From positions 549,110 to 613,109 of the forward strand of contig KQ482066.1 of assembly GCA_001430745.1 (NCBI GenBank): a stretch of 64,000 nucleotides of DNA. The letters run 5' to 3'. Source of the DNA: Auxenochlorella pyrenoidosa. Taxonomy: Eukaryota > Chlorophyta > Trebouxiophyceae > Chlorellales > Chlorellaceae. The notes under the pieces are model-generated. The model was not told the DNA's origin and did not search any database. It saw only the letters and a program-made list of their open reading frames with translations. Position 1 is the first letter of the stretch, and every line of letters begins with the position of its first letter. The translations under genes were made by a program, and so were the position numbers. Shown in pieces: positions 9,901 through 12,900 of this stretch.

Positions 9901-12900
9901 GCAGGCAGCCCGTGTGGAGCGCCAGCCCGAGCGGCGAGCAGCCCTCTGCAAACACGGGCTGTTGCTGGCGCGGTGTGGATCCGCAGATCGGCTCGCCAGA
10001 AGCAGGCCTTGCCGGTGCAGGGGAGGACAGAAGCGCGGCTCTGTTGGGGCCAGGGGCCCAGCCGTGTGCGCGGCGGGCGGGCGGGCGCTGCTCACCAGAC
10101 ACGACCAGCTTCACCCGGCCGCCCAGCTTCTCCTTGATCTTGCTGAACACGAGCTTGTCAAAGAAGGGTGCGGCCTGCGGGGTCGAGGTGCATGCCAAGA
10201 AAGAAAAAAGAAAAGTCAGCGGATGCCAACGCGCCCAGGGGCCAGCTGGGTTCGCGGGGCAGCTGAGCAGCGCCACAGCGTGCAGCCCGCCAGCGCGCGG
10301 AAGCGCCTGGGGGTCGCACGTGACGCTCAGACAGCCCCTGTAGCAGGGCTCCTCCCCCCAGCGTGCAGCCTCGCCTCACCTTGTCGAAGGTGCAGCCCTT
10401 GTTGAGGAAGTGCAGCTTGCGCTGGTAGCCCCAGTTGAACAGCGCCTTCTTCACAAAGGAGCCCTCGCTGACCTGCGGGAAGGAAGAGAAATCTCGGTGC
10501 CGCGCAGCTGAGCTCTGCTTCAGGATGCGTTTGCGCAGCTTGAAGCAGGCACACAGCCCAGGCACTGTGCCAGCGGCCGAGCAAATAACTGTCCCCGTGT
10601 GTGCGTTCGCCAGCATCATCATGGGCAGCGAGCCCTGCAAGCGTGGGGGCTGCCAGCCGCTGCTTCCTTGCCTTCTGCATCACACCGGCGTAGATGCGGT
10701 CGAACACGCGAGGCACGCCGCAGAACATGGTGGGGCGCAGCGCGGCTGCGGGGCGGGCGTGGCAGCGTAACATATTCAAGCTTGGCACGCATGTCATTCA
10801 CCAAGCGGGCGACAGCAGTAGTTGTGTGGCGCACCAGTGCTGGAGCCCACAGCCGTGCATGCCACCTGCCAAGCTGTGTGCCACCTGCCGAGCTGTGTGC
10901 GCGGCAGATCGGGCCCGCAACGCTGCCACCCAGGCGTTGCTCACTCACCAATGTCGTCCATCAGCCCCTTGATGTCGCCCCGCCAGTACCCAATGGAGGC
11001 TCCCAGGTGCAGGTACAGCTCCTCGGCAGTCCTGCAGTACCAGGCAGGCGCAGCGGGCATTCTGAAGGAGCAGGGCGGCAGGAGAGCACCAGGCAAAACG
11101 CACAGCCTTGGGAGAGAGAAGGCAGGCAAGAAAGGCAGCAAATGGGCAGCAGAGCAGGGAGCAGCAGTTGAAATTGGCAGCAAGTGGACAGCGGGTGATT
11201 GGCCACTGGGAGATGGGGGCAGCAAGTGGGCCCTGGGCTCAGGTCTTGGGCGTGAGGGGTGCATTTGTGCGTGAGCGTTGGGCTCGTGCAGAACGGAGCG
11301 TTTGGCCCGCCTGTCAAAGATGTGTGCCAGCGGCAGGAAGCCGATCAGGCTGTCTGTGTGGTCCAGGTGCACTTTGTGCGCCTCCAAAAAAGCACTGAGC
11401 GAGCCGACAGTGGTCACCACGGCGCGGTGGGTAATTTCCACGCCCTGCCCAAGCGAAGAGGAGGGAGCGGAGAACAGCGCGGAGCATGGGAGGAACCGGC
11501 AGGAAAGGCAGCAGCTTGGATGCACCACTGCTGGTGCTGTAGCTGGTGCGGCTGCGCTGCGTGGGCCGCAGGGCCGGAGAGCCCTGCATGCCTTGCAGCT
11601 GGCCAGACTGGCAGCGTCTGTCAGCTGTCCGCTGCAGCAGCATCTGCTGCTGCTGCCAGAAGAAGAGAGCAGCGGGTGGGCGCTCGAAGCAGCAGCAAGC
11701 AGGAGGCAGCGAGCGAGCCAGGCGGCGCAGGCGGCAGCAAGAGACTGTCGAGGAGGGTGGCAATCGCAGCGGCCAGGGCAGGCTTTGGGCCATTCGGCTG
11801 CAGGAGGGCAGGGCTACCGGTCGTAGATGTGGGCGAGGGGCAGGAAAGAGATGTAGACATCGTCTGGGCCCAGCTCGCTGCGGCTGTTTGGCGCCAGCGA
11901 GTTCAGGAACACCAGCTGCGACTCGATGGTTGCCAGCACCATGGCATGCGTCAGCTGGACGCCCTGCAGGCGGCGGCAGCGGCGGGCGCCGGGCGCCGGG
12001 CAGGGCAGGGCGGGGCGGGGCCGGGTGGGCGGGCGGCAGCGGGAGAAAGAGCGGCAGGGGGGGGGTGCAGCCATGGAATGACCTGTCGAAGATGTGGGCC
12101 AGGGGGAGGAAGGAGAGGAACACGTCGGTGTCATCCAGGCCCATGCCAGTCTGGGTGACAAAAATTTGCAGCGAGATGATCGCGGCCATCACGTTCTCAT
12201 GCGTGAGTTGGACGCCCTGCAGGGGAGGCACAGGAAGGTTTGCATGCAAGCCGGGCAGAGCAGGCGGCAGGCAGGCAGGCATGCAGACAAGGCCAGGAGG
12301 TGCAGGGGATGCCCGGGACAGGTGATATGCAGCAGGTGGGCTGCTGGGCGGCGACATGCATGCCGGCGCGAAACAGCAGGCGGGTTGGCCACAGGGAATA
12401 GTGCAGCAGTACGCCAGTGGGCATGCCTGGGCAACTGGAGCAAACCTGTCCCCAGCAGCGCCGGCTGGCAGCAACACGCTGCACTGCCGCTGGGCTGCCT
12501 GTGCTCAGGAACCCCACGCTTTGCTGCTCAGCCCGCCAAGCCAGGGTGCAGCGGGCTTGCTGCTCGCTGACCGCCTGTCGGCTAGGTCATGACCTGCCAC
12601 CAGCTTCTGATCTCTCACCTTGGGGTCCCCGGTGGTGCCGCTGGTGTCTGCAAGCCACAAAACAAGGGCGGGAGCAGGTGGTCTGTCAAAACAGGCTGCA
12701 ATGAGCTGATACAGGTGCTGCAGGCAGGCCCTGCCCGTCTACACAAGCGCACACACAACACAAGACTTGAACAAGGCATGCAAGCAGCGGTGGGCCCGCT
12801 GGCTGGCTTACACATGATGGTGCAGAGGTCCTCAGGCTTGGGCGGGCCTGCAGGTTCAGGGACAGGCGGGCAAAACAGGCAGGTGTGTGAGCCAGCCCAG

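Follow-up and report, generated by a model that had tools for sequence, protein, structure and literature searches.

Structure of the LACS locus

The window, i.e. the whole stretch of 64,000 nucleotides from Auxenochlorella pyrenoidosa contig KQ482066.1 that was analysed, carries on its minus strand a complete gene for a long-chain acyl-CoA synthetase (LACS), an enzyme by which fatty acids are activated (Table 1). The spliced model runs from ATG to stop with no internal stops and comprises 23 exons, 21 of which would be joined in each mRNA (7 constitutive exons, one gate exon and 13 further constitutive exons); its predicted product has 659 residues with gate A or C and 663 residues with gate B. 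The translation matches the profile PF00501 with 304 bits over residues 51-478, and the AMP-binding domain in the spliced model includes both the P-loop and the gate motif D-x4-(F/Y)-LPLAH; the product belongs to the ANL superfamily and has the acyl-CoA synthetase fold. The closest relative is a protein of Micractinium tetrahymenae (P0001; 93% identity over 100% of the length), followed among the named relatives by proteins of Chlorella vulgaris, M. conductrix and C. ohadii, which makes a host from the Chlorella clade probable; the 120 relatives among the matches listed share 45-93% identity with the window LACS, and the Chlamydomonas protein P0033 shares 58% over 98% of the length. A run of N is located in intron 2 of the gene, away from the gate exons. 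The upstream neighbour on the same strand, spanning roughly 17.2-15.16 kb, encodes a Brix-domain protein (PF04427, E 2.3e-9), presumably the ribosome-assembly factor RPF2.

Table 1. Positions of the LACS gene, its gate exons and adjoining features in the window (position 1 is the first letter of the stretch; exon/intron borders are given by a slash)
Feature	Position	Strand	Remarks
LACS gene, ATG to stop	6957..14916	minus	spliced model
Post-gate constitutive exon, starts (R)	10949..11031	minus	finishes the split Arg codon of any gate
Gate exon C	11311..11444	minus	134 nt; donor CAG/GCGGGC
B-C spacer	11445..11817	minus	373 nt
Gate exon B	11818..11963	minus	146 nt, 4 codons longer; donor CCG/GTAGCC
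A-B spacer	11964..12082	minus	119 nt, 82% GC, 58% C; shortest intron-like stretch of the gene
Gate exon A	12083..12216	minus	134 nt; donor CAG/GTCATT
P-loop exon, constitutive, (Y)TSGTTGDPK	12619..12647	minus	donor gtgaga, exits in phase 0
N run	13766-13942		intron 2 of the LACS gene
Brix domain (PF04427)	16627-16896	minus	upstream neighbour

Between the P-loop exon and the post-gate exon lie three exons, each coding for a version of the fatty-acid entrance (gate), the stretch that extends from the P-loop to FLPLAHI(F/Y)DR. All three follow a CAG acceptor and start with GGC GTN; their lengths of 3n+2 go with entry in phase 0 and exit in phase 2, and each ends two bases into an Arg codon that is completed at 11031. 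The coordinates, lengths, phases, AG acceptors and GT/GT/GC donors given in the first-pass annotation were recovered exactly as written there; the P-loop segment that it had placed upstream is likewise present, but not undivided, since an intron splits its Tyr codon. The frame lock which that annotation had proposed, i.e. that two gates or none would break the frame, held for every combination: all three spliced models with a single gate are open to 659-663 residues, whereas none of the five others is, with translation stopping after 322 residues without a gate and after 282 (AB), 288 (AC), 292 (BC) and 282 (ABC) residues. The array combines neighbouring homologous exons of identical entry and exit phase with a reading frame that is kept by single inclusion only, two of the features expected of a mutually exclusive exon cluster. 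As double inclusion or skipping shifts the frame, neither would give a full-length enzyme, and such transcripts would probably be degraded. At the position equivalent to the human gating residue, directly ahead of LPLAH, all three exons encode F, so that no F/Y switch exists in this gene.

Sequence constraint on the gate exons

The three gates are strongly diverged from each other, with amino-acid identities of 24/45 (A-B), 22/45 (A-C) and 21/45 (B-C) and nucleotide identities of 0.64, 0.59 and 0.54, respectively; the value for A and C agrees with the earlier estimate that about half of their positions differ. Each gate exon alone matches PF00501 at positions 179-219 (A 30.0, B 23.1 and C 21.2 bits), the curated whole-protein cut-off of 29.9 being reached by gate A only. 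A profile of 92 gates from other LACS (obtained from 107 proteins, P0014-P0120, of which 15 were dropped by the motif search) found exactly three places in the six frames of the window, namely A, B and C, with E values of 7e-20, 7e-18 and 3e-16, the next best match in the 64 kb having E=14. The profile scores were 74.7 bits for A, 60.3 for B and 67.7 for C; among the training gates, whose own scores are not leave-one-out values, 35 of 92 scored lower than A, one lower than B and 10 lower than C. With a single training gate below it, B sits at the lower end of the natural range. Both B and C retain the residues that are invariant among 15 aligned gates.

Neutral simulation to the observed nucleotide divergence, in a simplified form that places all change on one branch, reached the observed profile score in 0 of 2000 runs for each pair (from A to C, from A to B and from B to C); matching of the amino-acid identity occurred in 0, 1 and 0 of 2000 runs, respectively. 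These simulations, together with the gate types common to relatives (see below), bear out the proposal of an old duplication under selection, and the comparisons of sequence support an array of three gate exons that is old, constrained and frame-locked.

Searches in the own genome and in other DNA

The genome to which the window belongs (51.6 Mb, 65 contigs) was searched with two queries, gate A together with its flanking sequence (7 matches) and gate C (3 matches); B did not serve as a query, and scores were calculated for the best candidates. The matches corresponded to A, B, C and the following exon at this locus, to a LACS-type gene on contig C26 (E 3.5e-12 and 0.11 in the search with A and flanks) and, weakly, to contig C8 (E 0.28 in the same search). 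The C26 paralogue, located at about 1603580-1604070 on the minus strand, matches at 62% across the latter half of the gate plus the segment behind it; in the loci of 3.1-3.2 kb that were read it shows a single gate, split across two exons, with HSFDR in place of HIFDR, and so provides a useful contrast to the array. Scans of genome-contig and viral-contig collections revealed no algal locus, the best 80 of 581 relatives in the genome-contig scan being bacterial or archaeal by title; the comparative evidence described below is consequently protein evidence.

Gate types in related algae

A-type gates are present in four Chlorella/Micractinium proteins (P0001-P0004), with 87, 67, 71 and 69% identity to window gate A and with A-only versus C-only matches of 17:0, 14:0, 12:1 and 12:0, respectively; it should be considered that the protein collection was clustered at 90% identity, by which isoforms differing in the gate alone are hidden. 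The gate of P0007 is of the C type: it is identical to window C at 76% of positions (34/45; 73% elsewhere in the protein) and to window A at 47%, and its columns favour C over A by 15:2 (p 0.002). Since window C is nearer to P0007 than to window A, the duplication that separated A and C should be older than the split of the P0007 and window lineages, as far as the sequences tell. Leanings towards C in P0010 (10:3, p 0.09) and in the Auxenochlorella protein P0036 (10:5, p 0.30) were not significant. The region search with C gave 5 matches out of 33 candidates, P0007 with 76% and four Auxenochlorella proteins with 62%. The gate of C. ohadii P0005 is B-like (29/48 with window B, one gap column), its columns favouring B over A by 9:1 (p 0.02) and B over C by 10:3 (p 0.09); as none of the 8 candidates sharing common words in the region search with B reached E <= 10, this call is based on pairwise counts. 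No single type clearly fits the gate of P0012 (62% A, 58% B, 58% C), and the first of the N. desiccata gates can be called no more than A-like (58% A, 53% B, 44% C).

In the gate tree, window A fell within the A group (support 97/87), window C grouped with P0007, the second C. variabilis gate and P0010 (inner group 79/90), and B joined P0005 and the second Nannochloris gate weakly; the tree is built on 45 columns, which is too few, with 3 of 25 inner branches starred and the bootstrap unsettled, and it omits P0031, a row dropped by the motif search. A quick tree calculated after removal of the gate columns placed P0007 and P0010 as sister to Chlorella and Micractinium (97) and N. desiccata just outside (support 88).

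With respect to the residue at the gate position, the first gate was readable in 106 of the 120 listed relatives and showed Y in 80 and F in 26 of them. Y is present in C. ohadii P0005 and in the second N. desiccata gate, F in P0012 and in the first N. desiccata gate; judging from these sequences, related algae may have an F/Y contrast of the human kind.

Proteins with two or apparently exchanged gates

Several models from other species join two gates or differ as if gates had been exchanged. In P0009, a C. variabilis model, the A gate is followed by about 30 low-complexity codons and then by GVLISHRQVATTIGSKRAFLDA, the start of a second gate, whose 22 residues agree with C in 14 positions, with B in 9 and with A in 7; in P0002, which stems from the same gene and has the same N-terminus, the A gate directly joins the next exon. 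P0010 also joins two gate starts. The N. desiccata model P0006 (705 residues, 11 member sequences) contains two complete gates in frame; it equals P0008 plus the second gate (47 residues longer), the two being otherwise identical and on contigs of the same listed length. P0006 is evidence for a second gate exon and, at the level of the protein model, speaks against strict exclusivity in N. desiccata and so throughout the clade.

P0002 (657 uninterrupted codons on a contig of 2568 nt), P0007 (661 residues, longest contig 2510 nt) and P0012 (535 residues, 1780 nt) combine long uninterrupted frames with short contigs, which points to spliced RNA; these three proteins, cDNA-like by their length, have one gate each. 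Among the relatives, no single species showed two gate types in spliced RNA. Between P0005 and P0012, 27 of the 477 columns beyond the gate are different, as against 21 of the 48 within it (p 3e-14), in a comparison which omits the divergent C-terminal tail of P0012 (with the tail, 455/490 of the columns other than the gate are identical); the three worst listed windows of 48 columns start at 233-235, and the gate starts at 233. The pattern looks like an exon swap, even if the two proteins may come from different species.

The gene model P0046 of Micractinium sp. CCAP 211/92 starts just upstream of the post-gate exon, as though an automatic pipeline had lost the gene at the gate array. If the three-gate reading is true, the existing gene models of this LACS locus are incomplete.

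Splice sites and the proposed choice of the gate exon

The donors of gates A and B deviate from those of the constitutive exons: G at position +5 is present in 19 of 19 constitutive donors and absent in A (GTCATT) and B (GTAGCC), a contrast between gate and constitutive donors with Fisher p 0.013. Their matrix scores (A -0.01, B 0.45) are below those of all 19 constitutive donors, the lowest of which are nearly as low (0.55 and 2.19), and among 220 intronic decoy GTs, about 20% reach the scores of A or B. The donor of gate C is a GC with +5 G and scores above 4 of the 19 constitutive donors; GC donors also occur in 2 of the 19 constitutive introns (minus strand, at 10672, AAG/GCAAGG, and at 8238, CAG/GCAAGG), and GC-AG introns may be common in this genome. 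Complementarity to U1 amounts to 7, 5 and 6 of 9 positions in the gate donors A, B and C (constitutive range 5-8), and the gate acceptors are ordinary, scoring above 13, 17 and 6 of the 19 constitutive ones. In sum, the weak gate donors fit a regulated choice without proving regulation, the signal read from the splice sites being modest.

For one gate alone to be joined to its constitutive neighbours, 655-1174 nt would have to be spliced out as an intron on one side or both. The constitutive introns have 143-473 nt, and this weighs against the single use of gates. Docking/selector RNA pairing beyond that of shuffles was not found in the four surrounding introns: the best site, in the first intron, reached -30.7 kcal/mol (shuffle mean -28.9, sd 1.4, minimum -30.9), and the other three introns paired no better than the shuffle mean, with 12 shuffles each at a coarser step serving as a rough control. 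Steric hindrance was rejected as the sole cause of exclusivity: the A-B spacer is short, but the B-C spacer, with its 373 nt, is too long for hindrance alone to explain it.

According to the proposed mechanism, the exchanged module would comprise the strand end after the P-loop, then a helix, a loop and a further strand; the splicing machinery would select one gate exon per transcript, a regulated choice to which the A and B donors lacking +5 G and the GC donor of C would be suited. By analogy with human ACSL6, the exchange would change the rate or the fatty-acid preference of the enzyme, so that one gene might provide three enzyme settings.

Interpretation of the gate array

The evidence from the locus and, most strongly, from the relatives makes it likely that one LACS gene holds its gate module as three alternative exons, one of which enters each mature mRNA. 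A different view of the same array would be that one gate, probably A, makes nearly all of the enzyme, with B and C seldom spliced in and serving chiefly as poison exons by which expression is reduced, or persisting as copies in slow decay. The presence of the A type in four close relatives, whose proteins (P0001-P0004) are annotated or cDNA-like, would agree with it, as would the weak donor and the lowest profile score of gate B; but B and C keep the invariant residues and stand far above neutral decay (0 of 2000), and a C-type gate is found in the 661-residue, cDNA-like P0007 and a B-like gate in a C. ohadii protein, for which reasons we consider a dominance of A improbable. Likewise, the gates might be alternative without being exclusive, with two tandem gates in some transcripts and a lengthened enzyme segment as the result. 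For N. desiccata this is what P0006 depicts, two complete gates in frame in a protein otherwise identical to P0008; in the window gene, any double or triple inclusion shifts the frame, no alternative AG that is in frame lies 1 or 4 nt ahead of the B acceptor, and the cDNA-like P0002, P0007 and P0012 contain one gate each, which leaves tandem use with little probability.

That the array is an artefact of assembly, i.e. collapsed paralogues or alleles set side by side, has a practically negligible chance: a run of N does lie in intron 2 of this same gene, but the searches with A and C found the array at one place in the 51.6 Mb genome, the one further clear match, on C26, belongs to a separate LACS that has a single gate of its own, the gate exons are 54-64% identical in DNA and thus far from alleles, and models from other species (P0006, P0009, P0010) contain neighbouring gate exons as well. 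Returning to three alternative exons in one gene, we lean towards the broader interpretation of a three-way, frame-locked switch of the Chlorella clade that arose independently of animals at the segment swapped in mammals, that is older than the split from P0007 and perhaps older than the separation of Nannochloris, Chlorella and Micractinium, and that would retune one LACS by exon choice, possibly for membrane lipid remodelling or oil storage. If this interpretation is true, nature provides a set of three variants in an otherwise identical protein, by which the control exerted by the gate module could be worked out, and a conserved mutually exclusive exon cluster exists in unicellular algae of a lineage in use for oil.

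Comparison with known systems

Alternative gate exons have not been reported for algal or plant LACS in the open-licence literature that was searched (subscription papers lay outside it). Plants and other green algae, e.g. Chlamydomonas (CHLRE_13g566650v5, P0033), possess the same protein with the segment once; at the protein level, those of the P0033 type differ from the window LACS by having no second gate. From a green alga, a mutually exclusive exon pair has been described for Volvox carteri cyn23 and examined by RT-PCR (PMC4378016). Coding exons of the mutually exclusive type are common to both cases, and the cyn23 pair is of equal length; unlike the LACS gene, cyn23 encodes a cyclophilin and has two exons of 106 nt (PMC4378016).

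The nearest counterpart is found in mammals. In human ACSL6 and ACSL1, a pair of 26-residue exons is exchanged, one with Y and the other with F ahead of LPLAH; with oleate as substrate, the activity of the F-gate form of ACSL6 was about ten times that of the Y-gate form. A form without gate, in which both exons are skipped, exists and had no detectable activity (Soupene and Kuypers 2006, PMC1543647; Soupene et al. 2010, PMC2868784). Human and algal genes agree in the enzyme family and in alternative exons over D-x4-(F/Y)-LPLAH after the P-loop, and one version per transcript, as in human ACSL1/ACSL6, is the rule proposed for the alga. In contrast to the two human exons of 26 residues, the alga has three of 45, 49 and 45 residues; skipping, by which both human exons can be left out, breaks the frame in the algal gene; and instead of a Y/F pair, A, B and C all carry F. 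The algal exons thus have neither the boundaries of the human homologous exons (45/49/45 versus 26 residues) nor their F/Y difference, and with 26 versus 45-49 residues both exon boundaries cannot be common to human and alga. Of the two origins offered by the first-pass annotation, an independent or a very old case, exon length supports an origin apart from that of the human exons; the two lineages have likely converged on one module rather than inherited the exons from a common ancestor, the animal side of this comparison being the published exon length. If true, evolution has twice made the same piece of a LACS an exchangeable exon, in animals and in green algae, and this module would then, rather than by chance, be the best place to retune the enzyme. 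The array of A. pyrenoidosa would represent a new three-way variant of the mammalian ACSL1/ACSL6 gate-exon switch, probably of independent origin.
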